Assembly: GCF_004343075.1 (NCBI RefSeq)
Contig: NZ_SLXP01000011.1
Coordinates: forward strand, 41,954 to 105,953
DNA length: 64,000 nt
Direction: 5' to 3'
Origin: Rhodovulum marinum
GTDB lineage: Bacteria > Pseudomonadota > Alphaproteobacteria > Rhodobacterales > Rhodobacteraceae
In this document: piece after piece, positions 9,966-38,607 of the stretch
How the letters are laid out: the number at the start of each line of letters is the position of its first letter
Position numbering within the stretch: the stretch's first letter is position 1
The notes under the pieces: generated by a model
What the model was told of the DNA's origin: nothing
Database searches by the model: none
Seen by the model: only the letters and a program-made list of their open reading frames with translations
Position numbers and translations under genes: made by a program

Positions 9966-11213
9966 GTGCCCGCCCTGCCGCGCCTTGCCTATCTCACCTC
10001 GCTTTATCCGGCGGCCTCGCACACTTTCATCCTGCGTGAGGTGACCGCCCTGCGCGAACTGGGCTTTCAGGTCGAGACCTGCTCGATCCGTCGGCCCGCG
10101 CCGTCGCATCTGATCGGGCCCGAGGAAGCGGCGGCCGTCGCCTCCACTTTCCATGTCGTGCCGCGCGGCCGGAACCCGGTGACGATGCTGCGCGCCCTTG
10201 GCGCCGCGCTGCGGACACCGGGGCGGTTGCTGGCCACGCTGGCGCTTGCCTGGCGGACGGCCCCGCCCGGTGCCGCGGGCACCCTCAAGCAGCTCTTCTA
10301 TCTCGCCGAAGCGCTGGTGCTGGCCCGGCACCTGCGCATGCAGGGCATCGATCACCTGCACAATCATTTCGCCGATCCTTCCGCCAATGTGGCGATGCTG
10401 ACCTCGGCGCTGTCGGGTATCCCCTTCAGCTATACCCTGCACGGGCCGGCCGAGATCTACGAGCCCTACAAGTGGCAACTGCGGGAAAAGACGGCACGGG
10501 CGGCCTTCGTCGCCTGCATCAGCCATTTCGCCCGCTCCCAGGCGATGTATTTCTCCGATCCCGCCCATTGGACCAAGATCCGGATCGTCCATTGCGGGGT
10601 GACCCCCGAACGCTATGACCGGCCCGCGCCCCTCGGGGGCAACGGCACGCGGCTGGTCTTCGTCGGGCGGCTGACCGCGATCAAGGGGCTTCGGGTGCTG
10701 CTGGAGGCCTTCGCCCGGGCGCGCGAAACCTGGCCCGACCTGCATCTGACGCTGGTGGGCGATGGCGAGGATCGGGCGCATCTGGAAGCGCTCGCCGCGC
10801 CTCTGGGGGATGCGGTGGCCTTCACCGGCTATCGCTCGCAGGAGGGGGTGGCCGAAACGCTGGCCGCCTCGGACGTATTCGTCCTGCCAAGCTTTTCCGA
10901 GGGGTTGCCGGTCGTGCTGATGGAGGCGATGGCCGCGGGCAAGCCGGTGATCGCCACCCAGCTGGCCGGGGTGGGCGAGCTGGTCGAGGAGGGGGTCTCG
11001 GGTTTTCTGGTGCCTGCGGGCGATGCCGAAAGCCTGGCCGAACGCATGGTGCGGATCGCGGGCGATCCAGCCCTGCGCGAGACGATGGGGGCGGCGGGGC
11101 AGGCCCGGGTGCGGGCCGACTTCGACGTGCGCCAGGAGGCTGCCCGGATCGGGGCGCTGTTCGCAGGCCAGGGCGGCAGCGGGCCCCGGCCGGACCCCAT
11201 GGGGACGACCTGA
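9966..11213 (+). CDS. GT4-family glycosyltransferase (EpsE/WcaL-like)
   Basis: The 415-residue GT-B fold protein starts with GTG. Its N-terminal domain (LAYLTSLYPAASHTFILREV) is typical of the EPS-locus GT4 proteins often named EpsE in Rhodobacterales. The C-terminal donor-binding domain has LVFVGRLTAIKGLRVLLEAF and FSEGLPVVLMEAMAAGKPV, the EX7E-type motif of retaining transferases. It adds a sugar from a nucleotide-sugar donor to the lipid-linked repeat unit in the cytoplasm; donor and acceptor are not predictable. It overlaps the asparagine-synthase gene by one base (TGATG), so the two are coupled. Confidence 0.9.
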   Translation: MPALPRLAYLTSLYPAASHTFILREVTALRELGFQVETCSIRRPAPSHLIGPEEAAAVASTFHVVPRGRNPVTMLRALGAALRTPGRLLATLALAWRTAPPGAAGTLKQLFYLAEALVLARHLRMQGIDHLHNHFADPSANVAMLTSALSGIPFSYTLHGPAEIYEPYKWQLREKTARAAFVACISHFARSQAMYFSDPAHWTKIRIVHCGVTPERYDRPAPLGGNGTRLVFVGRLTAIKGLRVLLEAFARARETWPDLHLTLVGDGEDRAHLEALAAPLGDAVAFTGYRSQEGVAETLAASDVFVLPSFSEGLPVVLMEAMAAGKPVIATQLAGVGELVEEGVSGFLVPAGDAESLAERMVRIAGDPALRETMGAAGQARVRADFDVRQEAARIGALFAGQGGSGPRPDPMGTT

Positions 11214-14453: not shown

Positions 14454-15689
14454 ATGAAACCCGCCGTACTTTTCACCCTTGTCCTTCTTGGCCTCGCGGC
14501 CGGCCTCGCCTACAGGCTTTACCCCATCGTCCTGGGCCCGCCGGTGCTGTCGGAAGCCTTCATGACCGAGGACGGCTATCTGATGCTGACTGTCGCCCGG
14601 AACATGGCGTTGGGGCTCGGCATGAGCGTGTCGGACGGCACGATCCCCACCAACGGCGTGCAGCCCCTGGCGACCTTTCTGTTCGCCATCCCCTACCTTC
14701 TGACCGGCGGCGACAAGGTGACGAGCCTTGTCGGCATCCATTTGATCGCCGCGACCGTCGCGCTTGGCGGCGCTTTTGCGGTGCGCGCCTTCGCCCGCCG
14801 TGTGCTGGCGCCTCTGGACGACGCGCCGCTCTGGTCTTGGATGGCCGCGCTCCTGTGGTTCCTGTCACCGCTGCTGCTCTATCATACGATGAACGGGCTC
14901 GAGACCGGACTCTACACCGTCGTGCTGCTGCTGACGCTGTTGCAGTTCGGGCGTGTCCTGGGCAAAGGCGCGGGGGTAGGCCCGGCGGACCGGCTGCTGC
15001 TCGGCGCTCTTGGCGGGCTGGTGTTTCTGGCGCGCAATGACGCCGTCTTCCTTGTGACGGCGATCTTCGCCATCTGGGCCCTGCATGACCTTGTCCGTGT
15101 CCGCACGGGCTTTGTTCCCATGCTGCGGCGGCTGGTGCCGCCGGGCCTAGCCAGCCTTGCGGTGGCGGCGCCCTGGCTGATCAACAACCAGATCCGTTTC
15201 GGTTCCATCGTGCCGATCAGCGGGTCCGCGCAATCGCTGGCGGCCGAGTTCGGACAGAATGCCGGCCTGCTGCCGGTGAAGATGTTCGAATACCTGTTCC
15301 CGATGCTGCCGGTTCCCGGCGGGCTGGAGGGCACGTCTCCCGCGATCTGGGGCGGGGTGCTTGTCGTGGCCCTGGTTCTGGGCCTGTTCCTTGTCCAGCT
15401 CCTCCGGCGCGGCAACGCCGTGCTCTGGGCGGTGGTGGGGGCCTATCTGGTCCATGGCTTGGCCCTTGCGGGCTATTACGGGCTCTATTTCGGGGCTGCC
15501 CATTTCATGGGCCGCTATCTTGCGCCCCTTGCGCCGCTCCTGATCGTGGCCGCGCTCTGGGCCGCGATCGAGCTGGGGCGGGTCCTCTGGCCGGGCCGGC
15601 CCCGGCTTGTGGCGCAGGTCTACGGGGGGGGGCGGACTGGTCCTCTCGGTGCTGCTATTGGGGCGGCTTCTGATGCCCGGCGTTCATGA
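14454..15689 (+). CDS. Membrane glycosyltransferase-like protein, 5' part of a frameshifted gene
   Basis: This frame gives a polytopic protein with about ten hydrophobic helices and an acidic loop early on (VLSEAFMTEDGYLMLTVARN), as in GT-C/ArnT-like glycosyltransferases using lipid-linked sugars. ATG at 14454 was chosen because AAAGGA lies 5 nt upstream. After VAQVYGGG the frame passes into low-complexity sequence and stops at 15689. The natural C-terminus is found in the next frame (15631-16035). The break is at a run of nine Gs (15624-15632); eight Gs would restore one reading frame. Either the gene is phase-variable or inactive, or the run is a sequencing error. Confidence 0.75.
   Translation: MKPAVLFTLVLLGLAAGLAYRLYPIVLGPPVLSEAFMTEDGYLMLTVARNMALGLGMSVSDGTIPTNGVQPLATFLFAIPYLLTGGDKVTSLVGIHLIAATVALGGAFAVRAFARRVLAPLDDAPLWSWMAALLWFLSPLLLYHTMNGLETGLYTVVLLLTLLQFGRVLGKGAGVGPADRLLLGALGGLVFLARNDAVFLVTAIFAIWALHDLVRVRTGFVPMLRRLVPPGLASLAVAAPWLINNQIRFGSIVPISGSAQSLAAEFGQNAGLLPVKMFEYLFPMLPVPGGLEGTSPAIWGGVLVVALVLGLFLVQLLRRGNAVLWAVVGAYLVHGLALAGYYGLYFGAAHFMGRYLAPLAPLLIVAALWAAIELGRVLWPGRPRLVAQVYGGGRTGPLGAAIGAASDARRS
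15624..15632 (+). repeat. Nine-G homopolymer at the frameshift point
   Basis: A run of nine Gs lies exactly where the membrane glycosyltransferase reading frame is lost. Removing one G joins the frames of 14454-15689 and 15631-16035. Such tracts are slippage-prone in replication and error-prone in sequencing. Confidence 0.9.
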
Positions 15690-16035
15690 TCAGGGCCACG
15701 GACAGGTGGTGCGCTGGGTGCAGGAAAACGTGCCCGAAACGGTCTGGGTGGGTGCGGTGCAGACGGGTACGCTGGGCTACTGGCACGACCGCACGATCAA
15801 TCTCGACGGCAAGGTCAACCCCGAGGCGCTGGCGGCGCGGCGCGAAACCGGCACGGTCCTGCCTTACGTCGTGCAGGACAGCCGGATCGACTACATCGTC
15901 GACTGGGCCGGCGTGGCCGGCTGGGTCGCGCAGGACGCAGCGGGCTTCTCCGAGGCGTTCGAGCTTCTCTTGCGCGACGAGGCCGCAAATCTCGCGGTGC
16001 TGCGGCGCAGGATCCCAACAACCCCCGAGAACTGA
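15631..16035 (+). pseudogene. 3' part of the frameshifted membrane glycosyltransferase
   Basis: This frame continues the preceding gene: one last membrane helix (LVLSVLLLGRLLMPGV), then a soluble periplasmic-type tail (VRWVQENVPETVWVGAVQTG, DRTINLDGKVNPEAL) of the kind found at the C-terminus of GT-C proteins. It has no ribosome site or start of its own near the junction, so it is not an independent gene. The combined product would be about 525 residues. Confidence 0.7.
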
Positions 16036-16110
16036 GGGCGGTTGGCAACCGTGCCGGCGGGATCTGCGCCGCCGCCGTGGCGGGCTGATCCTTCCGGGCG
16101 ATCGCCCGTG

Positions 16111-17076
16111 CTACACGGCCGTTTCCGAGACCGGCTGGACAGCAGCCGACCACAGCGCCGCGCGTTCGGCCTCGATCTCGGCCACGGCGCGGGCCTTGCC
16201 AACCAGCAGCGCACGGCGCTGATAGGAGCGGAGGAAAGCGGCAAGGTCCGGATCGTCATGCTGCGGGATCCGGCGTGCCATCGCCCCGAAATAGCCCTGC
16301 AGCATGGCCAGACCACCCAGGACAAGGGGCGGCTGGCGCATCCTGTTGATGGCCGAGGCCAGCATGAACAGCGGATCGGTGCCCATGTAGTACTGTCCGA
16401 AGCCGTGGCGGCGACGGCCGGTATAGATGCTCGTCTGGCTCGACCCCATGGGGCGCAGATGCTCGAAGCGCAGGTCAGGATCGTCCCAGCTCACCGGTGT
16501 CCAGCCCAACTGGCGGGCCTTGTGGCAGTCGATCCCGTCCCACATGACCTCGCGCACGAAGCCGCCGATCTGGCGGAAACAGGCGACCGAGTAGAACTTG
16601 GTCATACCCAGCGACATCTCGTCCCCGATCCGCTCGCTGACCAGGTTACCGTCCGCGTTGCGGAAATAGGCCTTGCCTGAGCAGGTGCCGATCCGGGGAT
16701 CGGCCTGCATACGGTCCATCAGGATCTCGAAATACCGCGGCGGCAGGTCGAGATCGAGGTCGAGCTTGCACAGATAGGCGTAATCATCGAGCGAAACGGT
16801 CTCCAGCCCGGCATAGAACGCCTCGATCACGCCGGGGCCCACGGCGCGGTGGCCGCGGTCTGGTTTCAGCACGATGCGGATCCAGTCGTGGCGGGCGGCA
16901 TACTCGGCCAGGATCGCGGGGGTGTCGTCGGTCGAGCCGTCATCGACGATCACCCAAAGTGCAGGCCGCTCGCTCTGCGCCACCACGCTGTCGAGCGTGC
17001 GACGCATGTAGGCCGCCTCGTTCCGGCAGGGCGAGATCACGACATAGGCGCGGGGATCGGGGGCGGGCTGGGTCAT
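16111..17076 (-). CDS. GT2-family glycosyltransferase
   Basis: The 321-residue GT-A fold protein has YVVISPCRNEAAYMRRTLDS at the N-terminus, nucleotide-binding WVIVDDGSTDDTPAIL, an acidic motif CKLDLDLDLPPRYFE in place of a simple DxD, and an acceptor region FVREVMWDGIDCHKARQLGW. The start at 17076 (MTQPAPDPR) was chosen over an upstream ATG because the GT2 fold begins just after it. It is 8 nt downstream of the methyltransferase gene on the same strand. It probably adds one sugar of the EPS repeat; specificity is unknown. The C-terminal region carries one short hydrophobic segment (LVLGGLAMLQGYFGAMA). Confidence 0.9.
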   Translation of the reverse strand: MTQPAPDPRAYVVISPCRNEAAYMRRTLDSVVAQSERPALWVIVDDGSTDDTPAILAEYAARHDWIRIVLKPDRGHRAVGPGVIEAFYAGLETVSLDDYAYLCKLDLDLDLPPRYFEILMDRMQADPRIGTCSGKAYFRNADGNLVSERIGDEMSLGMTKFYSVACFRQIGGFVREVMWDGIDCHKARQLGWTPVSWDDPDLRFEHLRPMGSSQTSIYTGRRRHGFGQYYMGTDPLFMLASAINRMRQPPLVLGGLAMLQGYFGAMARRIPQHDDPDLAAFLRSYQRRALLVGKARAVAEIEAERAALWSAAVQPVSETAV

Positions 17077-18260: not shown

Positions 18261-19550
18261 ATGACCCGACACCGTATTCTCATCCTCGCCCAGGACTGCA
18301 ATCCCGAATGGCCGTCCCTGCCGATAGTGGGATACAACTATGCCCGGGCGCTAGCCGGGGTGGCAGATGTCACCATCGCCACCCATGTCCGCAATCGAGA
18401 GAACATCGAGAAGGCAGGCGAACTCTCCGGCAGGGTGTGTTACATCGACAACGAATGGATCGCCGCCCCCATGTACCGGCTGTCCGTCCTGCTACGCCGC
18501 GGCGAGGAGGTGGCGTGGAGCGTTAACCAGATCATGGCCTATCTGCCGAACCTCGCCTTCGAGCGACAGATCCTCGACACCTTCCGCAAGCAGTTGCGCG
18601 CCGGCGCGTTCGACATCGTCCACCGGATCACGCCGATGTCACCGACCCAGCCAAGCTATATGGTCGGCAAGACCCGCCAGCCCTTCGTCGTGGGGCCGCT
18701 CAACGGCAATCTCGACTGGCCCTCGCAGTTCTCCTCCGAGAAGAAGCGCGAGCGCGAAGGGCTGCGGTCGCTCCGGGAACTCTACCGCTACCTGCCCTAT
18801 GCCCGGTCGACGCAGTCGAAGGCCGACTGCATCCTCGCCGCGTTCCAGCACACCATCGACGATCTGAAAGCCGCCGATCCCGCCCGCATCGTACCGATGC
18901 CCGAAATCGGGTTCGACCCGGCAATCTTCCATGCCGAGGGGCGGCAGGTTCCGTTTTCGGACCCAGGTCCAAAGCGCTTCCTCTATGTGGGGCGGCTGGT
19001 GCCCTACAAACTGCCGGAAGTCGCCGTCCGGGCCTTTGTCGGCTCTGACCTGCTCCGACCCCACAAGCTGCACGTGGTCGGAGCCGGCCCCGAACTCGAC
19101 CGGCTGAAGGCGATGGTCGCGGAGGCCGGTGCCGGCGACCGGGTGATCTTCGAAGGCGGCAAGACACAGGCCGAGGTCGCCGAGTTCATGCGCCGCTCGG
19201 ATGCCTTCGTCTTCCCCTCGATCCGCGAGCTCGGCGCCGGCGTGGTGATCGAGGCGATGGCCTGTGGCTTGGTCTGCCTGGTGACGGATTACGGTGCACC
19301 GGGGGATCTGGCGGCCAACGACCGTGGTGTACGGATTCCGATGCAGAATCTGGAGGGTCTGGTACACGCCTACCGGGCTGCGATGGAAGATTGCCTGGCC
19401 GATCCCACGCGCCACGCCGCCACTGCCGACCGGGCGTGGGCCTATGCCCATGGGCTGTATGACTGGGAGGCCAAGGCCGCCTACACCCTGCGCATCTATG
19501 AAGCGCTTCTGTCCGGCGCGCCGCTGGACCAGTTCACCGATTACCGCTGA
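18261..19550 (+). CDS. GT4-family glycosyltransferase
   Basis: The 429-residue GT-B protein has RILILAQDCNPEWPSLPIVG at the N-terminus, the linker FVVGPLNGNLDWP, donor-domain strand RFLYVGRLVPYKLPEVAVRA and the EX7E-type motif SIRELGAGVVIEAMACGLV. These are features of retaining GT4 glycosyltransferases. Its last 17 bases overlap the 3' end of the convergent methyltransferase gene. It stands alone on the plus strand between two minus-strand pairs, suggesting that this part of the locus was assembled piecemeal. Sugar specificity is unknown. Confidence 0.9.
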   Translation: MTRHRILILAQDCNPEWPSLPIVGYNYARALAGVADVTIATHVRNRENIEKAGELSGRVCYIDNEWIAAPMYRLSVLLRRGEEVAWSVNQIMAYLPNLAFERQILDTFRKQLRAGAFDIVHRITPMSPTQPSYMVGKTRQPFVVGPLNGNLDWPSQFSSEKKREREGLRSLRELYRYLPYARSTQSKADCILAAFQHTIDDLKAADPARIVPMPEIGFDPAIFHAEGRQVPFSDPGPKRFLYVGRLVPYKLPEVAVRAFVGSDLLRPHKLHVVGAGPELDRLKAMVAEAGAGDRVIFEGGKTQAEVAEFMRRSDAFVFPSIRELGAGVVIEAMACGLVCLVTDYGAPGDLAANDRGVRIPMQNLEGLVHAYRAAMEDCLADPTRHAATADRAWAYAHGLYDWEAKAAYTLRIYEALLSGAPLDQFTDYR

Positions 19551-20310
19551 ACCGCTCTCCTCCCCCCGGGTGGCGCAGCGTCATTGCAATGCCGTTGCGC
19601 ATGTAGGGGATGACCCCGACGGGCTTTGCGAGGATTCGGCCGATGCGGGCCGGCAGGCTGGCGCCCTTGAAGCCGTCTTCGTAATATTCCGCCTGTTCCG
19701 TCTCGAACCCCGCATGCCCGGCCTGCCAAAGCATCTGTTTCAGCGTGTATTCGTGCTGATGACCAAGGACCATGCCCGGCTCGGGATAGCGATAGATGTC
19801 GAGGACCTCCTTGCCGAGCGCCATGTAGACAAGGTTCCGGAACCGGTGGCCATTGGGCGTGGTCAGAAACAGCCGTCCGCCGGGGGCGAGCAGCTTCTTG
19901 ATCCGGCCGAGCACCACATAGGGCGGCTGGGGGATATGCTCGATCACCTCGGTCAGGATGACCAGGTCCAGCCCTTCGATCTCCGGGGTCTCATCCGAGA
20001 ACAGATCGACGATGACGAATTTCAGCCCCAAATCCTCGACATCCTTGCGGGCCCGCTCGTTGACATCGCCCACGATCGCGTCGAATTTCAGAAGCCGCGA
20101 CACGAGCACCGCGAGAATTCCCCCCCCGATGTCGAGAACACGGCTGCCCGGCGGCAGACCCAAGGCCTCAATATATTGAAACGACTTCCAGAATCTCTGC
20201 TTGCAGCGCCTGTAATAGGCTAGGTTCTCGACGAATGTCCGGCCCTGTATGTGGGACTCGTAGGTTTGGCTGAAGGTCGCGTAAGAAACGGTCTGGAGGG
20301 AATGATTCAT
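19534..20310 (-). CDS. Class I SAM-dependent methyltransferase
   Basis: The product is about 258 residues with SAM motif I SRVLDIGGGILAVLVSRLL, post-I VGDVNERARKDVEDLG, motif III-like LVILTEVIEHIPQPPYV and LAPGGRLFLTTPNGHRFRN, the classic Methyltransf_11/23 layout (UbiE-like). The start at 20310 was chosen over an upstream ATG at 20394 because the preceding 28 residues look non-coding. The gene ends inside the end of the convergent GT4 gene (17-bp tail overlap). The likely substrate is a small metabolite or a sugar; the locus suggests EPS tailoring. Confidence 0.88.
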   Translation of the reverse strand: MNHSLQTVSYATFSQTYESHIQGRTFVENLAYYRRCKQRFWKSFQYIEALGLPPGSRVLDIGGGILAVLVSRLLKFDAIVGDVNERARKDVEDLGLKFVIVDLFSDETPEIEGLDLVILTEVIEHIPQPPYVVLGRIKKLLAPGGRLFLTTPNGHRFRNLVYMALGKEVLDIYRYPEPGMVLGHQHEYTLKQMLWQAGHAGFETEQAEYYEDGFKGASLPARIGRILAKPVGVIPYMRNGIAMTLRHPGGGERFSGNR

Positions 20311-20568
20311 AGAAGACTTGAAGCCAGGAGGGTCAACATCAATCTGTGGCACAGGCAAACACCGAACCCGGAGCGAGTCAAGGCAAGGGGGCATGCGCCG
20401 TCCGATGCGTCATGGGCGACCATCAACAGCGAAGAAGGGCCAACTGCGTGACGCAATTGACCTTCCCCCAGATCCCCACTGGCCGACACTGCAGCACGGC
20501 TTAGAGGCCAGGCCGCCTCGGCCAAGCGGAGATCTGGGGTCCATCTTCGTCAGCGATTAACAACCGCG

Positions 20569-22911
20569 TTACAGCTTCCTCGCCCCGATGTTCGCCCGGT
20601 CACCCGGCTCATTTGCTATCCAGTCGGCCACGGTTTCGCCAATCGCCGGGCCCATGGCGAAATTGGTCGTCCGTGTCACGCCGCTCGGGTCAGGGGCCGC
20701 GCCGGAAGGCAAACCGGAGAGAATATAAGCGGGCGTTACCGGAACAGGGGTTACGGTGATGTCCCCCGGCCCGTTGTAGGTGTAGATATTCTGATCGAGA
20801 AGGGTGATCTGGTTGCCCCAAGCATCGAGCAGCGGCGCAGTCTCGTCCAGTTTGTAGTTGATCCCCGCCAAATTCCCGTCCGCAATCCAGCCCGCGAGGG
20901 TAGTATTGTTATCCGCATCGGGCCAGGATTCTACGTTGTCACCCCACTGATCCTGCGGCCAATAACTGTAGATGCGTACCTGTGCGTCCAGCTCAGGTAT
21001 TGGATTTGTGGCAGCCGGATCATCTCGCAAAGACACCATTCGGATCAACTCGACAAATGGAACTATTAGCGATCTAGTAAACGGAGAATAGTGAACAAAA
21101 GTGTTTCCGTAGAACTTGTTCGGGGCCACTCTTGCCTTGAAGAAATCCCGCCACTGCTCAATAAACGGCGCTACTCCTAGCGCGCTGTTGAAGAAAGCAT
21201 CAATGGCGGCTTGATCGCTCAGGTCCACGTCCCCCCGCCTTTGAACAGCAATTGCGGAAGATGCCGGGGCACCAAGGAAGCTGTGGAAAATACAGTTCCT
21301 GATTGTTACGCCCATCCCTTGAACGTAGGACATATGCTCAGAACCATTGACGCGAGGAATGAAAATACACCCGTCGAGGATTGTGTTGCCGAGGTTCGGA
21401 AGGTTCGGGTTGCGTCCGTTTGTATATGTTGAAACAACACCGAGGCCGCCCTGTCCGATGCTGTCAAAGACATACATATGCGAGTCATAGCGGGGCGGGA
21501 ACGAAGCACCGCTCATGTCTTGAAGGCGGTAACATTCTTGAACTTGCGATGTGGCGTTGGTGTGGCTGATATATAAAAGGTTGGATCTCGGAACCCTGAA
21601 CGCGGCGGCAGATTTTCCCTCCTGCACGGTGCCAGCCGCATCGACAATTTCCGTGCCAGTAAAGCCGAAGTATCCGGTGCGGCCGCCTTCCATTTCGCTC
21701 GAGCACAAAGCGCCATAACTGCCGCGCTTTGCAATAGTGAAATCGTTGCAGTGGAAAATCCCGTTAACATAGTTCAGGGAAATGGTATCCCAGAAGCCGG
21801 TCAAGGTGATCTTGTCGGCAATGAAGCTTGCGGCAGAACCTGGGACGTATACACCAACATTGAGATTTTCCGGCAAAGTTGCCGAGAAGGGCGCAACGGT
21901 CGGATCATACCCGCCACGAAGGTCAATGTTGGAACAATGAATCTCCCCTTCAATTCCTTGCGGCGGTGCAAGTCTTATAGTTCCAGCGCTTCTAGGAGAT
22001 GATGTCAGATTATTCCAGATTGGATCGTCGCCAGTTCCATAAGCGTCAATGCCGCTGATGTTGTCCGAATTGCTGTTGAAGTGGACGTTGTAGGTCTTAT
22101 TCCTCTTCCAGAGAAACAGCGTCTTGTTGCCATTTTCCGGGCGCGTGTTGATGATGCCCGGACGCCTATCGTCAACAAACGGATAGTAGTAGCTATAGCC
22201 GCCGTTAATCTTCCACTCTGCCGATACCGCAGTGAACGAAAAATTCACATCGGTTTCCTGAAACCCGTCGAAAACCAGTGTGCCCGCATTAACCCGATCC
22301 GTGATCCACGAGGGCATGTCCGGGTCGTCATGGGCAGGCACCGAGTCCGTGTCAAATGCGACAACGCTGAGGTAGAAGTCTTCTGGCTTGGCAACCTCGA
22401 CCTCGGTAGAGGCCGTTGCCCACAGACCAGAAGACGGCTCATAGACCAGCACGCTGGCAACGTAGGTTCCGCCTTCCCGGTAGAGGTGCATGGCTTCCGG
22501 CCCTTTACCGTAGCGGCGAGAGGCGCAACCGGGCGGCAGGCGGGTGGGGGCGGACCATTCCTTTTCTGCCTCGGGCACGTTTGCCCACGCCGCGTCGCCG
22601 TAGAAATCCCAGAGGTAGATGAGATCGTGATACCGAGGATAGTATTGCTGGCGGTGTCCAGGCGGCGTGCTTTCCGGGTGTTCCAGCGGCGTCTGGAAGA
22701 GGGATTGCGTCGTGTTCACCCGGAACGTCACGCTGTCCGGGGCAACCTGCCCGCGGGTTCGCGTCAGTTCGATCGAGATCGTGCCCGCCGTCGGATTGCC
22801 CCAAGATGGCACTTGCGCCGATGCCGAGTTCCCTCCCTGGGTGATCGTCAGAGTCATCGCCGTTCCGGCGAGCAGGGCGGATGTCAGTTTGAGCATGTCA
22901 CGTCTCCGCAT
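20569..22911 (-). CDS. Tat-exported protein with PKD-like and parallel beta-helix regions
   Basis: The 780-residue product (ATG at 22911 chosen) opens with a twin-arginine-like signal, RRRDMLKLTSALLAGTAMTL. A PKD-like segment follows at about residues 70-180 (LIYLWDFYGDAAW and later LYREGGTYVASVLVYEPSSG). The middle, about 320-560, is a chain of short Asn/Gly-rich strands (GIFHCNDFTIAKRG; TILDGCIFIPRVNGSEHMS; GVTIRNCIFHSF) as in right-handed parallel beta-helices of polysaccharide lyases and phage tailspikes. The gene is 163 nt downstream of the spike-fibre gene on the same strand. A secreted polysaccharide-binding or degrading role is inferred; catalytic residues cannot be assigned. Confidence 0.65.
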   Translation of the reverse strand: MRRRDMLKLTSALLAGTAMTLTITQGGNSASAQVPSWGNPTAGTISIELTRTRGQVAPDSVTFRVNTTQSLFQTPLEHPESTPPGHRQQYYPRYHDLIYLWDFYGDAAWANVPEAEKEWSAPTRLPPGCASRRYGKGPEAMHLYREGGTYVASVLVYEPSSGLWATASTEVEVAKPEDFYLSVVAFDTDSVPAHDDPDMPSWITDRVNAGTLVFDGFQETDVNFSFTAVSAEWKINGGYSYYYPFVDDRRPGIINTRPENGNKTLFLWKRNKTYNVHFNSNSDNISGIDAYGTGDDPIWNNLTSSPRSAGTIRLAPPQGIEGEIHCSNIDLRGGYDPTVAPFSATLPENLNVGVYVPGSAASFIADKITLTGFWDTISLNYVNGIFHCNDFTIAKRGSYGALCSSEMEGGRTGYFGFTGTEIVDAAGTVQEGKSAAAFRVPRSNLLYISHTNATSQVQECYRLQDMSGASFPPRYDSHMYVFDSIGQGGLGVVSTYTNGRNPNLPNLGNTILDGCIFIPRVNGSEHMSYVQGMGVTIRNCIFHSFLGAPASSAIAVQRRGDVDLSDQAAIDAFFNSALGVAPFIEQWRDFFKARVAPNKFYGNTFVHYSPFTRSLIVPFVELIRMVSLRDDPAATNPIPELDAQVRIYSYWPQDQWGDNVESWPDADNNTTLAGWIADGNLAGINYKLDETAPLLDAWGNQITLLDQNIYTYNGPGDITVTPVPVTPAYILSGLPSGAAPDPSGVTRTTNFAMGPAIGETVADWIANEPGDRANIGARKL

Positions 22912-23074: not shown

Positions 23075-25126
23075 TCAGTCATTGGGGGCGGCCTTCGCCG
23101 TCAGCCATGCAACAAGCGCGACCCTCTCGTCCGGGGTCAGATCATTGGTGGTGCAGACGATCTGCCGGACGCGGCCTTGCACGCCGTACGAAGGGACAGC
23201 CGATGAGTATGACAGCGGGCGGATAGTTGCTGCCATGTCTGGTGTAGTGCCGGTCAGATCGAGACCCTCGGCGCTGACGACGACATATGTACCGTTTGTC
23301 GTCCACAGGCCATGCAATTCGGCGCGGGTGGAGGGCGTGATCGGGGTCCCATCCGCACTATAAGTGATCGGGCCGCCAAATCCGATGTCGAGGGGAGTGG
23401 CGCCCCCGTAGTTGGTTGCCGAAGCCACCCCTGCGGCGACGGAAGACAAAGACGTGCCCACCAGCATGAAATTCCCGTCGTTCCGGGTATCGATGACCGC
23501 GTGGAGGCACATATCGGCGGTCAAGCCGGTGAGCGCGCTGGCGGGCGTCAGATAGCCCGTCGAGGTCACATTGTTATTGGTGTAGCTGCCCTGATACGTT
23601 CCGATGCCGACCGGCGAGGAGGCAGCGGCGTCCCCGGTGGTGAAGTCGTTGCCAGTGCCGGACTTGTCGGTGAAAAGGATCGGCGTGTCGCCAAGGGCCG
23701 GGGGCATCCCGGCCTTTGTCTGCATGCTGGCGGCATCGGTGAAGTCCAGCCAGAAAACACACTTGTTCTGAGCCCCCTCGTTCAGACTGGCCGGATCGAA
23801 CGTGGCCGCGCCCGCGATGGCAATTGCGTTCGTGTCTTGCGAGACATCCGCCCCTGCGCCGCTGCGGGCCGCTTCGGTGACGATGATGCTGCTGCCTGCG
23901 TCGTCCGACTGAACCTCATAGGTCGGCGCCGCCGCCGTGCCGCCCATGGACCCGGACCCACTTGACGTGTAGGCGATGCTGGGCTCCGGGTTACTGGCGT
24001 CATAGACCCACAGGCCCGGCGCGACCGTCAACGTCTCCGCTACTCCACCCGTGCCGGACAGGATCGGCGCAACCAGACATTTCGCCACCACGCCCGAGAG
24101 CGCATCTAGGTCGAGTACTGCGCCATCGGCCCAGGTGGTATAGGTACCCGCATACAGACCGCCCTCGATCATGATGCTGTCAAGCGTGCCGGCGCCGCTG
24201 ATCTCCAGCGTATTGTCACCGGGGTCACGCAGGGTGATCTCGCTGCTGCGGATCATGTTCGAAGTCGCGGTCACCGTGCCCACGATATTTTCTGCCGTGA
24301 CGACACAGGTGATCTCCGCGCCGATATCGACGGTTTGCAGCATGTAGCCCGACCCCGTCGCCCCGGAGATCACTGCACCATCACGATACCATTGATAGGA
24401 AAGGCTTGGCGCGGGGATTGCTGTCCAGCTGCCCGGATCGCATGTCAGTGTGGCGCCGACGGTCGGGTTGCCCGAGATGCTGGGCGCCACAACGTTCACG
24501 GGCGGCACGAACCCCGTAACCCTGATGGTATTCGAGGTGGCCGAAGCCGACCCTTCCTCGTTGGTCGCCGTCACCGTGCATGCGATCTCGGCCGCATCAT
24601 CATCCTGCGTGATCGTATAGGTGGTGGTCGTCGCCCCGACGACCGGGAGACTGCCCCGCATCCACTGGTAGACAAGGCTCGGCGCCGGCGTACCCGTCCA
24701 GCCGCCGCTCTCCACGACGAGCACGTCGCCCAGAGCGGATCCGCCCGAGATGATGGGGCCGATGGTGTTCGACGGCGCGACACCCGAAACGGTCGTGCTT
24801 GAGGTGTTGAAGAGGAAATCGTTGTTCTCGCTGTCCGTCACCCGGATACGCGCCTGTACGCTTTCACCATAGGCGAGAATGACGGAGCCGTCGAAGGTCC
24901 AGGCGCCCCCATTCACGGACCATTCTGCAACGGCCGAGACGATCGATCCGCCCGTCGATTTGTAGTTGGCCGTATCCGTGGCCGAGGCCGGGAGCGTGTC
25001 TGCCAGGGTTGTACCGTCCGGAACGGGTTGGATGGCCGGGGCGACCTTGGCGATGATGAGAAGGCCGTCCTCGGCGACGATCGGTCCGGAGGACGAAAAG
25101 GCAATGCCGATGGGAAAACTGCTCAT
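23075..25126 (-). CDS. Ig-repeat/lectin-like protein, probable spike fibre
   Basis: The 683-residue protein lacks a signal peptide. Residues about 115-285 hold two Ig-like repeats with the same pattern: APSLVYQWMRGSLPVVGATT then AEIACTVTATNEEGSASATS, and APSLSYQWYRDGAVISGATG then AEITCVVTAENIVGTVTATS. Residues about 460-683 (KCVFWLDFTDAASM, LFTDKSGTGNDFT, RQIVCTTNDLTPDERVALVA) look like the concanavalin/LamG-like adhesion domain of phage and GTA fibres. The gene starts 4 nt after the spike-base gene ends. This order and domain make-up suggest it is the fibre on that base, binding surface polysaccharide. Homology to Rcc01080 of R. capsulatus is inferred from position, not shown. Confidence 0.65.
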   Translation of the reverse strand: MSSFPIGIAFSSSGPIVAEDGLLIIAKVAPAIQPVPDGTTLADTLPASATDTANYKSTGGSIVSAVAEWSVNGGAWTFDGSVILAYGESVQARIRVTDSENNDFLFNTSSTTVSGVAPSNTIGPIISGGSALGDVLVVESGGWTGTPAPSLVYQWMRGSLPVVGATTTTYTITQDDDAAEIACTVTATNEEGSASATSNTIRVTGFVPPVNVVAPSISGNPTVGATLTCDPGSWTAIPAPSLSYQWYRDGAVISGATGSGYMLQTVDIGAEITCVVTAENIVGTVTATSNMIRSSEITLRDPGDNTLEISGAGTLDSIMIEGGLYAGTYTTWADGAVLDLDALSGVVAKCLVAPILSGTGGVAETLTVAPGLWVYDASNPEPSIAYTSSGSGSMGGTAAAPTYEVQSDDAGSSIIVTEAARSGAGADVSQDTNAIAIAGAATFDPASLNEGAQNKCVFWLDFTDAASMQTKAGMPPALGDTPILFTDKSGTGNDFTTGDAAASSPVGIGTYQGSYTNNNVTSTGYLTPASALTGLTADMCLHAVIDTRNDGNFMLVGTSLSSVAAGVASATNYGGATPLDIGFGGPITYSADGTPITPSTRAELHGLWTTNGTYVVVSAEGLDLTGTTPDMAATIRPLSYSSAVPSYGVQGRVRQIVCTTNDLTPDERVALVAWLTAKAAPND

Positions 25127-25130
25127 TGGA

Positions 25131-25391
25131 TCACCTCAGCGCCACGATTCCGGTTGCGGTCGTACCGGTCGCCCAGACCCGTGTGGCACGGACGGGAAAT
25201 ATGACCCCGGCGACGACATAGACAGCGCCGGTCGTCCCTCCGACCGTGGTGACTTTCACGGTCCCGGAGGTGGCGACATTGAGCCCTCGGCTGGCCGAGG
25301 AAAGGTCTTCGGTATCGCTGGGCGTGACCGCGTGGAGTTGTGTCGCCGGACTGTCCAGCCCTGTCTTGTGATTCTGGAAGGCGTCTTTCAT
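25131..25391 (-). CDS. GTA head-spike base protein, RCAP_rcc01079 family
   Basis: The 86-residue protein runs FQNHKTGLDSPATQLHAVTP, SDTEDLSSASRGLNVATSG, then VFP-type strands and the ending RVWATGTTATGIVALR. From memory of the family, this is the typical pattern of the small spike base protein (Rcc01079, GhsA) of the Rhodobacter capsulatus gene transfer agent: GLD(S/A)PA near the N-terminus, AVTPSD, and RVRATGTTAxGIVAL at the C-terminus. In RcGTA this protein anchors head spikes that bind the cell capsule. It is followed 4 nt later by the fibre-like gene. No capsid, portal or tail genes are in the window, so it is a detached spike module. Confidence 0.75.
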   Translation of the reverse strand: MKDAFQNHKTGLDSPATQLHAVTPSDTEDLSSASRGLNVATSGTVKVTTVGGTTGAVYVVAGVIFPVRATRVWATGTTATGIVALR

Positions 25392-25677
25392 CCGCTCGGC
25401 TCCCGTTCGGAGGTGTTCTTCAAAGGCAATGCGCCGAACATGACGGGACTGCGCCCTTCTGTTTTCAGGCCTTGCCGGACGAGGGGACTATCGGGGAAAG
25501 TGCTGAAAGAGGGGTGGGACCGCCGCACGCAGTGCAGTGCCCCGGCGCAACGCTCTCGGCAGGATCGCGTTTACCGGTGTCGTTCTATCCTGTATCGCGT
25601 CGTGCCGAGGAGGACCGACCGTCAATCACCGCTGCGCGCCCCGTGCCTCGGCGCAAGCGCCGGACAGGAGTTAGCCC

Positions 25678-27177
25678 ATGCTGCCCCCCTTGGCCGTGCT
25701 GTTCGCCTGGCCCGTCATCAGCATCATCTTCTTCCGGACCATGCGCCTGCCCCTGGCGATCCTCGTCACGATCTTTGGGGGTTATCTTCTACTGCCCGAA
25801 GCCACCGTTATCGATTTTCCGCTTCTTCCAGCCCTCAACAAGCACACCGTTCCGGTCCTGAGCGTATTGCTCCTGATCGCGCTCGGGATCGGCTACGCCC
25901 CCCCTCGGAAGCTCGCCGGCCTGCTGCCACGGCATTGGCTAGTTCTCGTTCTGCTGGCCGTTCTGGTCGGGGGGGCCTTCATGACCGTGAGGACCAATCC
26001 CGATCCATTGGTCTACGGGCCGGTGTTCCTGCCAGGAATGAGGACCTATGATGCGTTTTCAGAGGTTCTGAGCACCATCATGATGGTGTTGCCGATGCTC
26101 GTGGCGCGGAAATACCTCGCCCATCCGGCCATGCATGTCCTGATCCTGCAGATCCTTTGCATTGCCGGTCTCGCCTATTCCCTGCCGGCCCTGTTCGAAG
26201 TCCGGATGTCGCCCCAGCTCAACAACTGGATCTACGGCTTCTTTCCGCATAGCTTTGCCCAGCATGTGCGGGGTGGCGGCTTTCGGCCCTTGGTCTTTCT
26301 CTCACATGGCCTGTTGCTGGCGATCTTCCTGTCGGCCACGATCCTAGCCGCACTCGGGCTTTCCAGGATCGATACGAAACGGCGCTCTCTCTTCCTGTGG
26401 GCAGTGCTCTGGCTCCTTGTCACATTGATCCTGGCCAAGTCGCTGGGCGCCCTGATCCTGACCCTGGCCCTCGCCCCGGTCGTCTTCCTCGCCTCGGCAA
26501 GACGCCAGTTGCTGGTCGCGGCCATCGTTGCGGGAATCTTCCTCAGTTATCCGATTCTTCGAAGCAGCCAGATCGTCCCGGTCGAGCGGATCGCGGCGAC
26601 CGTCGAGACGTTCAGTTCGGATCGGGCTGAATCCTTTCGCTTCCGTTTGACCAGCGAAGACAGGTTGCTTGAAAAGGCACAGCAACGCCCGCTGTTCGGA
26701 TGGGGCAAATGGGGAAGAAACAGGGTCTATGACGAAAAAGGCCGTATTATCGCCATCACTGACGGGGCCTGGACCGGTCAGATTGGAACATCTGGGTGGG
26801 TAGGATATCTAGCCGTTTTCGGGCTGCTGACCATGCCGCTTCTGCTTCTGTTCCGGAACGCTCGGCGATACGGGATCGGGATGGAAACCTCCGTTCTGGC
26901 ACTGATCCTTGCGGGAAACCTCGCCGATTGCATTCCGAACGCGTCGATCACCCCGCTCACATGGGTCATCGCCGGAGCACTCTGGGGGCGGCTGGAGCTG
27001 AGGGCCGAGGCCGCCGAAGCGGCGCCGCAAACCTTGTCCTATGCGCGGCCGGGGTATCGCAGGGCCCCACCGGTCAGGCCCGCCCTGGTCGGCGAAGGCA
27101 CGGATGCGCCTGCGCGCGGTGCTGCCTACACGCGTCAGACTGTGCTCAGATCCCGCAATCGGTCCCCCTCCCGCTAA
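25678..27177 (+). CDS. O-antigen ligase/polymerase-like (Wzy-type) membrane protein
   Basis: The 499-residue protein has about 11-12 hydrophobic helices and a large periplasmic loop before the motif RPLFGWGKWGRNRVYDEKGR, the position and composition expected for the Wzy_C/O-antigen ligase loop. A CAGGAG ribosome site lies 7 nt before the ATG. The last 60 residues are a basic, proline-rich cytoplasmic tail (RPGYRRAPPVRPALV) not needed for the fold. It should polymerise lipid-linked repeat units in the periplasm, working with the Wzz-like protein. It diverges from the spike-base gene across 286 bp with no other gene seen. Confidence 0.85.
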   Translation: MLPPLAVLFAWPVISIIFFRTMRLPLAILVTIFGGYLLLPEATVIDFPLLPALNKHTVPVLSVLLLIALGIGYAPPRKLAGLLPRHWLVLVLLAVLVGGAFMTVRTNPDPLVYGPVFLPGMRTYDAFSEVLSTIMMVLPMLVARKYLAHPAMHVLILQILCIAGLAYSLPALFEVRMSPQLNNWIYGFFPHSFAQHVRGGGFRPLVFLSHGLLLAIFLSATILAALGLSRIDTKRRSLFLWAVLWLLVTLILAKSLGALILTLALAPVVFLASARRQLLVAAIVAGIFLSYPILRSSQIVPVERIAATVETFSSDRAESFRFRLTSEDRLLEKAQQRPLFGWGKWGRNRVYDEKGRIIAITDGAWTGQIGTSGWVGYLAVFGLLTMPLLLLFRNARRYGIGMETSVLALILAGNLADCIPNASITPLTWVIAGALWGRLELRAEAAEAAPQTLSYARPGYRRAPPVRPALVGEGTDAPARGAAYTRQTVLRSRNRSPSR

Positions 27178-27231: not shown

Positions 27232-28872
27232 ATGAAAGCGCGCGACTGGCCCGTTCGTACAAAACCGGTGACACAAATGCAGGACAGTGCGGAAATCTCG
27301 GTGATCGTCGTCAATTACGGAACGGCGGACCTCGCCCGAGCTGCAGTCGACAGCGTCCTCGCCCACGACCACGACGGACGAAAGGTCGACGTGCATCTGG
27401 TGGACAACGCCTCGCCCGGGCAGGACCGCGAAATTCTGGCAGAGGCGGCGCGGTCCAAAGCCTGGCGTGGGCGGGTCACCTTCTACCCCGAGATGGTCAA
27501 TCACGGCTTCGGCCGGGGCAACAATCTGGTCCTGCGGGTGCTCGCAGCCCGGCCGACGCCCCCCGACAAGGTGTTTCTGCTGAACCCCGATGCCCGGCTC
27601 GACAACGAAGCCATCGCGATCCTAGCCGACGCAATGGATGCGGACCCAACCATGGGCTTTGCAGGCGCCGGGATCAGCAAGCCCGGCTCGGGCCCCGTCG
27701 TGGCTGCCTTCCGTTTGCCAGGGCTGATCTCGGAGGTCGTCTCCACCCTAGGCGTCGGCCCCCTCGCCCGGCTTGCGCAGCACTGGCAGGTACCGCTGCC
27801 GCCAGACCATCCCGAGGGCCCGGTCGGCTGGGTTGCCGGCGCGGCCGTTCTGGCCCGCTTCCACGCACTACGAGAAATGGGCTTCTTCGATGACGCATTC
27901 TTCCTCTATTACGAAGAGGTCGATCTCATGCGCCGCGCCGACCTAGCGGGATGGAAAATCCATTATGTTCCCCGGGCCCGGGTCATCCATGCCGAAGGAG
28001 CCGCGACGGGCGTCAGAAGCGGCGAGACCGTGCGCCGCCGCCGACCGGCCTACTGGTATCAGTCTTGGGCATATTACTTCCTCAAGGCCCGGGGCCGCGT
28101 CGGGGCGGCGGGCCTCGCGGTCGCTGTGCTGCTGGCGAGCGTTCTACATTTCCCGCTGTCGGGACTGCGCCGTCGCCCCCCCGCCCTGCCGCTGCATTTC
28201 CTCGGCGATTTCTGGTCCGTCGCCGTCTGGCCGTTACTGCGGGGCCAGGCGCCCATTTCCTGGCCGACGCCGCCTGTGCAGGACGCGCCGACCGAGGCAG
28301 ATACAGATCCGTTCCGGGTCAATCCCGGAACCGCGAACTGCAACCCGCTTGGGATCGGATTCTGGGCGTTGGTGCGTGAAGATTTCCGGACCAACGACAG
28401 TGATCTTCTCTCCCAGGGATTCTGGGCACTCTTCTGGCACCGCTTCGGCAACTGGCGCATGGAGGTCCGGCCAAAGCTCCTGCGGGCGCCGCTGAGCGTG
28501 ATCTACGGGCTGATGTACAAGATGTGCCAGTGGTTCGGGGGAATCATGCTGCCCTACACCGTCCGGGTCGGGCGGCGGGTGCGGCTGGACCATTTCGGCG
28601 GCATGATCCTCGTGGCCCAGCAGATCGGCAATGACGTGATCATCCGGCAGAATACCACCTTTGGCATTGCCAGGCTTGACGACTCGCAGGGCCGCCCAGT
28701 GATCGGGGACGGCGTTGAGATCGGGGCCGGCGCGGTCATCCTCGGCCGGATTCGCGTGGGCGATCGTGCGACGATCGGGGCGAATGCCGTCGTGACGAAA
28801 CCGGTGCCCGACCGGGCGGTGATGGGCGGCGTCCCTGCCCGCCTGATCCGCATAGTGGAGGCTGCGGAGTGA
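27232..28872 (+). CDS. GT2 glycosyltransferase fused to a hexapeptide acyltransferase
   Basis: The 546-residue protein has two parts. Residues about 22-290 are a GT2 (rhamnosyltransferase-like) domain: SVIVVNYGTADLARAAVDSV, LLNPDARLDNEAI, and GFFDDAFFLYYEEVDLMRRA. Residues about 290-310 may form a membrane-associated helix (VGAAGLAVAVLLASVLHFPL). Residues about 440-546 form a left-handed beta-helix acyltransferase like serine acetyltransferase: IGNDVIIRQNTTFGIAR, VEIGAGAVILGRIRVGDRA, TIGANAVVTKPVPDRAVMGG. One protein would add and acetylate a sugar. The start may be 27232 or ATG 27277. It overlaps the next GT2 gene by 4 nt (GTGA). Confidence 0.88.
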   Translation: MKARDWPVRTKPVTQMQDSAEISVIVVNYGTADLARAAVDSVLAHDHDGRKVDVHLVDNASPGQDREILAEAARSKAWRGRVTFYPEMVNHGFGRGNNLVLRVLAARPTPPDKVFLLNPDARLDNEAIAILADAMDADPTMGFAGAGISKPGSGPVVAAFRLPGLISEVVSTLGVGPLARLAQHWQVPLPPDHPEGPVGWVAGAAVLARFHALREMGFFDDAFFLYYEEVDLMRRADLAGWKIHYVPRARVIHAEGAATGVRSGETVRRRRPAYWYQSWAYYFLKARGRVGAAGLAVAVLLASVLHFPLSGLRRRPPALPLHFLGDFWSVAVWPLLRGQAPISWPTPPVQDAPTEADTDPFRVNPGTANCNPLGIGFWALVREDFRTNDSDLLSQGFWALFWHRFGNWRMEVRPKLLRAPLSVIYGLMYKMCQWFGGIMLPYTVRVGRRVRLDHFGGMILVAQQIGNDVIIRQNTTFGIARLDDSQGRPVIGDGVEIGAGAVILGRIRVGDRATIGANAVVTKPVPDRAVMGGVPARLIRIVEAAE

Positions 28873-31651: not shown

Positions 31652-33268
31652 TTATCGTGCACTGGTACCGTCGGGAATAAACCGGGGCAATGTCGGCTCC
31701 AGATCGCTCAGGACCTCCAGCAGGCGCGCTTCGGCCGCGGCGTCGGGCTCGCCGCGCAGGATCGGCGTCGTCAGCCGGACCAGCGCGCCATCGGTACGGC
31801 CCGTCCGGGCACCGTCGACCATCAACCAGAATTTCGCAGCATAATCGAGTGCGATGCGGCGGTGCTTCTGCTGGAACCAGTAATAGACCATCATCCGCGT
31901 CTCGCCCCTCTGGATGATCGCGCGGTTGATGTTGAAAGGCTGCACGCTACCCACCGCCCCCGAAATGTCGGTGCGTTCCAGCCAGGCGATTTCCCAGCCT
32001 GCACCGGGAAGGCAGATCTCGGGAGAATGCACGCCGCCCCTGCTCTGATCGGCATACCAAGCCATAAACAGACCCACCGACGCTTCCTCCCCAGCCTTGG
32101 CGAGCGTGACCTGGTGGTAGTCGTCTGCGGCCAGGTTCTGTTCGACGCCGGGGGTGAGATATTGCCGAGGCCCGTCCTGCCGCCATTCCCCAAGCGTGCG
32201 CGGGAACAGCACGAAACTCTCGCGCGCAGGTGCGACGGCCCCGCGCTCGGGCATGGCCTGCAGCGCGGCCAACGCGGCCAGAACGATGCCGACGGAAGCG
32301 ATCAGCGCCGTCGAGGGGCGCAGGTATTGCAGCCGCATGAGTTGCGGGGCAAAGCCGGTCGTGTCGAGATCGAGCGCCTCGGCCAACCCGGGTCGCCCGG
32401 GATGGAAGAACAGCATCAGCCGTGCGAGGCCGAAAAGGATCACGATCGAGCACAGGAAGATCACCCAGCCTTCGAAGAAATGGGTGAACCCTTCCAGCCA
32501 GTCGAGCCCGTAATACTGCACGATGATCCCGGCGACCGCGATCCGGATCGAGTTCATGACAATCGCGATCGGCACCGCCGAGACCAGCAGCACCGCCTTG
32601 TGCCATTTCGGTCCCTGATAGAGTACCGCGAAGATGTAAGAGAAGCTGAGGATCGGGAACATGTAGCGCAGGCCGGAACAGGCCTCGGCCACGTGCAACT
32701 TGGTCACCCCCAGGTCGATGATGTTGCCCTCGAGAAAGACCGGGATCGACAAGAGCTTGAGAAACCACACCCCCAGTTCCGACGAGATGAACTGCAGGTA
32801 GGTGGAGACCTTGTAATAGAGCACGCCGGGAAGCGGCAGCATGTAGACCAGATGCAGCACCGGCGGCCAGAAATGCTTGCCCGTGCTCCAGCCGAAGCTG
32901 ACCAGCAGGATGCCGCCTACCCACAGGATCAACCCGTAGGCCACGATGTCGCCGATGTTGCTGAGGATGCCGAGCGCGCCCAGCAGCACCGCAAAGACGA
33001 TCAGCAGCACCCCCGGCCAGCGATCGGATTTCGGGCCCGGTTCGGGCGGATACTGCTTGAGCTCGCGCAGGAACATCAGCGCCGAGAGCACCGGGATCAG
33101 TGGCCCGTGGCTGTATTCGGGAAGCTGCCAGGCGGTGAGCAGTGCGTCGATGCCGCTCCAGAAGAAGACCCCTGCCGCCAGGACGGCGAGCAGAAGCCAA
33201 AAGATGCCCCAGGACATGGACAATGACGTCCCCGAGCGGCTCCAAAAACTCGGCAGGGAGAGAGACAT
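31652..33268 (-). CDS. xrtD: VPLPA-CTERM-specific exosortase XrtD with fused EpsI domain
   Basis: The 538-residue inner-membrane protein has about eight helices in residues 20-290 containing the exosortase triad: Cys197 in VAEACSGLRYMFPILSF, Arg242 in MNSIRIAVAG and His263 in GFTHFFEGW. After a further helix (about 325-345), the C-terminal 190 residues form an EpsI/DUF3485-type domain (SRGGVHSPEICLPGAGWEIA, MMVYYWFQQKHR). This fusion is the known form of XrtD in Rhodobacterales, which cleaves and sorts VPLPA-CTERM proteins. A matching substrate lies at 37483-38271. The 205 bp downstream (31447-31651) has no recognised gene. Confidence 0.93.
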   Translation of the reverse strand: MSLSLPSFWSRSGTSLSMSWGIFWLLLAVLAAGVFFWSGIDALLTAWQLPEYSHGPLIPVLSALMFLRELKQYPPEPGPKSDRWPGVLLIVFAVLLGALGILSNIGDIVAYGLILWVGGILLVSFGWSTGKHFWPPVLHLVYMLPLPGVLYYKVSTYLQFISSELGVWFLKLLSIPVFLEGNIIDLGVTKLHVAEACSGLRYMFPILSFSYIFAVLYQGPKWHKAVLLVSAVPIAIVMNSIRIAVAGIIVQYYGLDWLEGFTHFFEGWVIFLCSIVILFGLARLMLFFHPGRPGLAEALDLDTTGFAPQLMRLQYLRPSTALIASVGIVLAALAALQAMPERGAVAPARESFVLFPRTLGEWRQDGPRQYLTPGVEQNLAADDYHQVTLAKAGEEASVGLFMAWYADQSRGGVHSPEICLPGAGWEIAWLERTDISGAVGSVQPFNINRAIIQRGETRMMVYYWFQQKHRRIALDYAAKFWLMVDGARTGRTDGALVRLTTPILRGEPDAAAEARLLEVLSDLEPTLPRFIPDGTSAR

Positions 33269-38379: not shown

Positions 38380-38607
38380 TCATTCCAAGGGTTTATTTCC
38401 CCTGCGCATCCTCGCGAACCCCCTGTCCGTCGCCATGAACCGGGCGAGCATGGGGGCGACGAGGCGGGCGGGGTCGAGGTCCTGCCCGGTCTGCTGGCCG
38501 AGAACCGCGGCATAGTCGCAGAGGTCTCGGTGGACGTCGGCGGGCAGCTCGGCGGTGAGCTTGACGGGCTTGTCGTCGGGGAGGACGCCGAGCTTGAGTT
38601 TGGTCAT
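38380..38607 (-). CDS. DUF2274 protein, end of trb operon
   Basis: The 75-residue protein (KLKLGVLPDDKPVKLTAELP; ADVHRDLCDYAAVLGQQTG) matches the DUF2274 family that regularly closes the trb operon after trbI in alphaproteobacterial conjugative elements. It resembles a short RHH/antitoxin-like DNA-binding fold. The start overlaps the trbI stop by 4 nt. Function is unknown. It is the last gene of the mobile region on this side; the next 108 bp to the VPLPA-CTERM gene hold no clear gene. Confidence 0.85.
   Translation of the reverse strand: MTKLKLGVLPDDKPVKLTAELPADVHRDLCDYAAVLGQQTGQDLDPARLVAPMLARFMATDRGFARMRRGNKPLE

Follow-up and report, generated by a model that had tools for sequence, protein, structure and literature searches.

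A predicted gene transfer agent spike cassette within an exopolysaccharide locus of Rhodovulum marinum

In a 64,000-nt stretch of the Rhodovulum marinum genome (contig NZ_SLXP01000011.1, positions 41,954 to 105,953; hereafter the window), a cassette of three genes on the minus strand, running from 25391 to 20569, was found among genes for exopolysaccharide (EPS) synthesis. These genes encode a spike base of the family known from the Rhodobacter capsulatus gene transfer agent (GTA; RcGTA), a predicted fibre and a predicted accessory protein; GTAs are domesticated viruses that move DNA from one bacterium to another. We consider it probable that the three proteins decorate the GTA particles of the same organism and would bind the EPS predicted for the locus around them. 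The position of the head spike GhsA/GhsB beside receptor genes is known and published for R. capsulatus. The generality across genera and EPS types, the three-gene form, the plasmid form and a promoter that splits cellular from nearly all viral copies are new, and no report of any of these four findings was met in the open-access literature, as judged mostly by titles and abstract openings. The first-pass annotation of this sequence had proposed the base and fibre genes and their EPS setting, and made no mention of a third gene, a promoter or a plasmid.

The positions given for the first two genes were confirmed. Open reading frames (ORFs) of 86 residues (25131-25391) and 683 residues (23075-25126) are both on the minus strand, and the second starts 4 nt behind the first. 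The assignment of the 86-residue product to the Rcc01079 (GhsA) family was borne out by the search with hidden Markov models, in which the product scored 109.5 bits against NCBIfam NF048002, "spike base protein, RCAP_Rcc01079 family" (cut-off 28). A further match was to the RcGTA base of known structure (6tb9, E 9.6e-16), and a weaker one to the phage spike base 8cjz (E 7.2e-4). The base family is common to the window and to the GhsA/GhsB (Rcc01079/Rcc01080) system of RcGTA, where the base protein forms a pentamer on the capsid vertices (excerpt of PMC7296036).

The 683-residue product is a predicted spike fibre in the role of GhsB, with an immunoglobulin (Ig)-like stalk. It matched phage virion and tail families, including phrog_12736 (virion structural protein, 4.9e-26), and its Ig-like repeats were under the Pfam cut-offs. 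Two Ig-like domains at about residues 116-290 (24257-24781, minus strand) had predicted local distance difference test (pLDDT) values above 90 in most ten-residue blocks of the AlphaFold2 model and matched the tail protein PDB 9c2d at 1.1e-10. Of the Ig-repeat, lectin-like fibre that was originally proposed, the Ig part was therefore recovered with two confidently modelled domains, but at the supposed lectin end residues 440-661 stayed below pLDDT 50. When 12 short fibres of sister loci were made into a profile, it gave no match to the window fibre; by eye only, its "FWLDF...DKSGTGND" resembles the "WYDPSD...DKSGNG" of these short fibres. GhsB of RcGTA has 325 residues (excerpt of PMC7296036), whereas the window fibre has 683 and carries Ig domains.

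The start of the fibre offers a candidate for its attachment. In RcGTA, according to the same excerpt of PMC7296036, the stretch I-A-L-G-L-G-L-G-L of the fibre sits on the base pentamer as a five-point star. The window fibre begins with F-P-I-G-I-A-F (25097-25117, minus strand), an alternating-hydrophobic pattern that may be a star-type anchor to the base, and the coupling of the fibre behind the base together with this kind of fibre start is shared by RcGTA and the window. ORFs coupled to a spike base were then scored for a beginning with four alternating hydrophobic residues. The pattern occurred in 24/67 and 21/44 of two cellular sets, in 9/54 of the viral set and in 17 of 512 control genes, the cellular enrichment having p values of 1.9e-14 and 4.8e-16 for the two sets. 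Over half of the coupled ORFs did not carry it, and the fibre bodies otherwise diverge widely. Because 17 of 512 control genes fit too, the fit of FPIGIAF is suggestive and no proof.

The embedding of the pair in EPS genes, as described at first pass, was evident from the called genes on both sides. Toward lower positions lie a methyltransferase (19534-20394, minus strand; PF13489) and a GT4 glycosyltransferase (18261-19550, plus strand; PF00534). Divergent from the cassette is a Wzy_C protein resembling O-antigen ligases and polymerases (25678-27177, plus strand; PF04932, 33.2 bits, cut-off 31.7), followed by a GT2-like glycosyltransferase with hexapeptide repeats (27232-28872, plus strand; Pfam) and the exosortase XrtD (31652-33268, minus strand; TIGR04152, 645.7 bits, cut-off 400). 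The R. capsulatus precedent named at first pass also held, since the head-spike genes there adjoin and are co-regulated with the capsule genes and the capsule is the receptor (excerpt of PMC10218006). The RcGTA spike lies beside the capsule genes rcc01081-01086 and the window spike likewise beside sugar-coat genes, but the genes around the latter form an EPS cluster of the XrtD type, and their contig is plasmid-like.

The linkage was surveyed in 295 genomes of the same family, each listed member with its own genus code, and a spike base was present in 102 of them. Around the spike matches 112 regions of up to 20 kb were taken, excluding the window, and 110 of them had a spike ORF (L120 and L137 did not). 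EPS classes were called with profiles built from the neighbour genes, mostly Pfam-named, and 28 regions of the same contigs served as controls. Within about 10 kb either way, at least one, two and three core EPS-class genes were found in 78, 67 and 59 of the 110 spike loci, compared with 5, 1 and 1 of the 28 control regions, so that the linkage was far above the control level, and the chance-level linkage that the first-pass annotation had named as refuting was not seen; with a stricter class set the Mann-Whitney p was 4.0e-7. For a further set of 80 named loci, the best out of 138, the corresponding counts were 66, 60 and 53. As 21 of these 80 loci repeat the first set, they were excluded from the unique count, which gave 49, 44 and 40 of 59 loci. 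Of the 292 viral contigs that carry a spike base, the best 80 gave counts of 2, 0 and 0.

In loci with at least 5 kb on each side and at least two EPS genes, EPS genes stood on both sides of the spike in 41/64 and 37/53 of the two sets. With XrtD as a curated marker, a spike base was present in 45 of 69 XrtD-positive genomes versus 57 of 226 XrtD-negative genomes (Fisher p 2.7e-9). Taken by locus, a spike base lay no more than 25 kb from XrtD in 26 of 70 cases. Seven plasmid records contained a spike base, six of them among or beside EPS genes and one, Cereibacter pORIO5, not. Among the six is a plasmid of Rhodovulum sulfidophilum DSM 2351, on which the base, with an EPS priming transferase next to it, occurs together with a fibre-like gene and EPS genes. 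The spike/EPS linkage was general across the same-family genomes, and the EPS classes varied between the spike loci. Because the pairing recurs beside many different clusters, the key of the particle (the spike) and its predicted lock (the EPS) are likely inherited together.

The upstream regions of EPS-linked spike bases share an imperfect palindrome with a consensus of about GCAGCG..CGCTGG (the box). TTAA, which is outside the 20-nt box model, begins exactly 29 nt after the box start in 27 of 74 sites, and no other offset occurred more than three times. A composite model of 52 columns was trained on 169 cellular loci, with the window excluded. In-sample scores above 15 bits were reached by 80/111 EPS-linked and 28/58 other cellular loci, compared with 1/80 viral loci and 3/878 other genes of the same EPS loci; in a 5-fold hold-out, 85/111 EPS-linked loci were above the 98th percentile of other genes. 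In the 6.2 Mb of the cellular loci, 109 composite matches lay upstream of a spike base, as against 27 at other places, and the control regions had 2 matches above 15 in 1.12 Mb. On both strands of the 64-kb window, the single match above 14 was at 25485-25536 (minus strand, 22.9 bits), a predicted two-part promoter of the cassette consisting of the box and a degenerate TTAACC half-site. Among the other genes, 1 of 878 reached this score.

The only other full spike base in this genome is a prophage copy, whose composite score was -2.2, and in "Roseobacter sp. isolate 269" the EPS copy scored 18.6 and the prophage copy -3.0. EPS linkage was found in 80/108 promoter-positive and 31/61 promoter-negative loci (p 0.004). 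Of the seven plasmids, three scored above 15, three between 12 and 14, and one below zero. The box and TTAACC at a fixed spacing thus separate cellular copies, which are probably of the GTA type, from nearly all viral copies examined, a separation that the family model alone cannot make. Plain counts of CtrA-type sites (TTAAN7TTAA, or TTAACC alone) depended on the background and gave none in the window, and the composite was used instead. A genome-wide search of the own genome with the box pattern was swamped by chance matches (374 and 398, versus 305 and 300 for the backward control). In a separate observation, a second strong promoter match (31.0 bits) in locus L099 lies 89 nt ahead of a 306-residue gene starting MFSFGFDF (15541-16550). 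This gene is a member of a fibre-like cluster and appears as an orphan fibre under a cassette-type promoter, 5.5 kb from the spike base.

An RcGTA-like cluster was found on another contig of the genome (G000:C3; GTA_TIM 2.5e-151). Its further ORFs, matched to the RcGTA order, we take to be terminase, portal, protease, capsid, a short tape measure of 220 residues, distal tail, hub, peptidase and megatron. The 13 kb of the cluster that were read contained no spike base, and in this the window genome resembles the RcGTA system. That no capsid genes lie near the spike genes, as stated at first pass, agreed with the absence of any match between 29 seed proteins of the own GTA and prophage and the called window genes, other phage types not having been searched gene by gene.

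The composite model, trained on spike upstreams only, was then applied to GTA-like terminase contigs of the viral collection IMG/VR (the best 80 of 253 stretches, with terminases 71-100% identical to that of the own GTA, the full clusters not each checked). It matched at the end of the terminase gene on the sense strand in 27 of 80 contigs. As controls, there were no antisense matches, 8 matches elsewhere on the sense strand in 496,793 nt, and none after shuffling. A portal-size ORF followed the element in all four contigs inspected. Upstream of the terminase, the box alone was present in 15/20 versus 3.9 after shuffling, and a motif derived de novo from 19 GTA promoters (L409 and L413 excluded as duplicates) overlapped the box core. 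For R. capsulatus, putative CtrA half-sites are described in three promoters, those of the head spike, the tail fibre and lysis, and two of these promoters have putative GafA sites (excerpt of PMC9638019; the GafA regulator is treated in passages of PMC6363796). We infer that the box is a GafA site. From its sequence, the shared promoter would tie the cassette to the GTA program, though the own GTA is without the element at its terminase end. At the genome level, GTA_TIM was matched in 97/102 genomes with a spike base and 162/193 others (p 0.005), the genomes without GTA_TIM being partly derived from gaps in the match list; this association is weak because GTA_TIM also occurs in some phages.

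Three further observations concern the GTA clusters themselves. The box and TTAACC at the terminase end of the 27 contigs, including L389, L419 and L438, suggest that in some lineages the GTA cluster has an internal promoter for the genes behind the terminase. In L138 (G292:C17), a promoter-positive spike base (21.4) lies about 10.6 kb from GTA_TIM, possibly a spike still near its GTA cluster. Moreover, IMG/VR lists both the GTA (a 14.7-kb record with a 100% identical terminase) and the prophage (L265) of the R. marinum genome as viruses.

The third cassette gene (20569-22911, minus strand; start codon uncertain among 22971, 22911 and 22896) is a difference from the GhsA/GhsB pair of RcGTA. 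An iterated profile run over all survey ORFs gave a family of 15 members including the window, with copies or near copies among them (L070/L188 and L191/L192). Of these, 13, one of which belongs to a prophage, are downstream of a spike base on the same strand within 3.5 kb, one is 3.2 kb away on the opposite strand and one is at 8 kb. Isolate 269 has two sets of base, fibre and third gene in this order. One lies in an EPS locus (L191) and the other in a prophage (L219), where genes of the tape measure, tail fibre and endolysin types precede it, and the two third proteins are 46% identical across 659 residues. Because this order is found in the prophage, the window cassette is a phage-type three-gene module.

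With a mean pLDDT of 58.8 the third protein was modelled poorly; the model points to a PKD-like domain and a likely beta-helix. A fold search against PDB found nothing at E 0.001; two viral fold matches passed this threshold, with low TM-scores and no names attached. TspA, a detachable tailspike of RcGTA, starts with a beta-sandwich, behind which comes a right-handed beta-helix with activity on matrix glycan, and its gene, like the third gene, is away from the GTA cluster (excerpt of the preprint PMC13420450). The layout of TspA may resemble that suggested by the model of the third protein. No sequence or fold similarity between the two proteins emerged: the PDB sequence search gave PKD matches only and the fold hits were weak, in libraries whose content of TspA was unchecked.

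The phage relatives of the cassette lead to the most substantial of the alternative explanations, that the cassette is a part or leftover of a tailed phage or prophage, a spike module which ended up among the EPS genes and is of use to phage particles, if to anything. The phage spike bases (the RcapNL "tail fiber protein", the "Spike Base Protein" of PDB 8cjz and phrog_12296) are of one protein family with the window base, the prophage copy in the own genome is 62% identical to it and surrounded by genes of phage, a tape measure and a major head protein among them, and the three-gene order recurs in L219. In a tree of 258 spike bases (86 columns, poorly resolved), the nearest relative of RcGTA GhsA was phage RcapNL. 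EPS and viral settings interleave in this tree and switch at least 18 times by parsimony, and if only the starred branches are counted, no fewer than 5 (EPS) and 7 (viral) changes of setting are needed. At this low resolution, the simplest reading would be that spike bases were recruited from phage repeatedly. However, phage spike bases are surrounded by phage genes and the window base by EPS genes, and the spike-in-EPS setting recurs in many genera, while at least two EPS neighbours were found in 0/80 of the viral copies (the best 80 of 292). The cellular promoter is missing in 79 of these 80, in the own prophage copy and in the L219 copy, but follows the terminase in the 27 GTA-like contigs, and the seed proteins of the own GTA and prophage have no match among the called genes of the window. 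We regard it as unlikely that the cassette is a phage part or remnant and not a GTA component.

In another explanation, the cell would produce these proteins to equip its own surface or matrix, where they might act as an adhesin or divert phages that use the EPS. This would suit their encoding within an EPS/exosortase locus, but in the only relative system with a solved structure the base is found at the capsid vertices (excerpt of PMC7296036), and the fibre start fits docking to such a base; we consider this explanation very improbable. We give about as little credence, and marginally less, to a linkage without function, in which spike genes and EPS loci, both accessory, gather in the same plasmids or islands. 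The plasmid markers of the window contig and the seven plasmid records speak for it, and the linkage controls were drawn from the same contigs and were not island-matched. Against it are the EPS genes on both flanks of the spike, the co-occurrence with XrtD, which is strong at the genome level too, and the role of the adjacent capsule as receptor in R. capsulatus (excerpt of PMC10218006).

Several results weigh against the assignment of the cassette to the GTA and the local EPS. The end of the fibre and the third protein were modelled poorly. In the stretch examined, 32 of the 110 spike loci had no core EPS gene. These 32 include prophage copies and some short stretches, but across the survey loci the seeds of the own GTA and prophage matched only their own kind and one megatron in L138, and because the seed matches are so few, not all of the 32 are accounted for. 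Nineteen promoter-positive spike loci were likewise without a core EPS gene in the stretch examined, and the genomes with two spike bases, ten in number, gave a mixed picture, in that the promoter was not always on the EPS copy. In the window the half-site reads TTCAGC, a degenerate form. At the terminase end of the own GTA the composite score is -5.8, and the motif built from GTA promoters only was found in 15/111 spike upstreams versus 37/878 other genes (p 0.0003) and missed the window. Three promoter-positive genomes had no GTA_TIM match, which also favours a surface role of the proteins. Taking these points together with the evidence above, the assignment to a GTA spike that binds local EPS remains the reading we hold to be probable.

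The wider setting of the cassette was also analyzed. The core of the EPS locus (1923-11213) comprises, from Pfam matches, Poly_export, a TPR protein, a sugar transferase, an AAA ATPase, a CbiA-type ATPase and a GT4 glycosyltransferase. At 38604-47865 (minus strand) are trb-type conjugation genes (TrbI, CagX/TrbG, VirB8/TrbF, TrbL, a TraG P-loop protein and a T2SSE/TrbB-like protein; Pfam), and similar trb stretches were found in 117 plasmid records. The same 106-kb contig carries, outside the window, the plasmid replication initiator RepA (PF10134; G000:C11:20183-20866). RepA and the trb genes make it likely that the 106-kb contig is a plasmid, and probable that this plasmid, with its EPS locus and spike cassette, is conjugative. 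The genes for the predicted receptor and the spike genes are thus together on this contig, and the GTA cluster is on another. Beyond the conjugation genes, a LuxR-type autoinducer-binding regulator (57922-58701) and a gene of the SLOG family (YAcAr; 61112-62029) were observed. In one survey locus, L140, a tandem pair of short spike-base ORFs (9595-10085) was seen.

For the GTA spike, the mechanism that we propose would begin when the GTA program is on and the predicted box/half-site promoter, with GafA and CtrA as the putative regulators, switches on the cassette. Base pentamers would be placed on the capsid vertices and would grip the fibre through its alternating hydrophobic N-terminus, and the distal part of the fibre would adsorb the particles to cells that bear the same EPS. 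Because the cassette is inside the EPS locus and on a plasmid-like contig with conjugation genes, key and lock would move as one, and they may be gained, lost and replaced together. The occurrence of the promoter in GTA contigs and the plasmid markers are consistent with the exchangeable receptor-plus-adsorption cassette envisaged in the first-pass annotation.

Beyond the window, we lean somewhat toward the view that EPS loci of the Rhodobacter group carry lock-and-key cassettes, in which the locus for the receptor glycan would also encode the GTA spike recognising it, under a GTA promoter. A change of coat, in this genome through a plasmid, would then retarget the chromosomal GTA to cells of like coat, as a heritable, greenbeard-like rule for the choice of recipients. 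This bears on the questions of which cells can take up GTA DNA and of what keeps GTAs in their hosts. If spike and receptor form one inherited unit, transfer by the GTA would favour cells with a matching coat, and a plasmid could redirect it.

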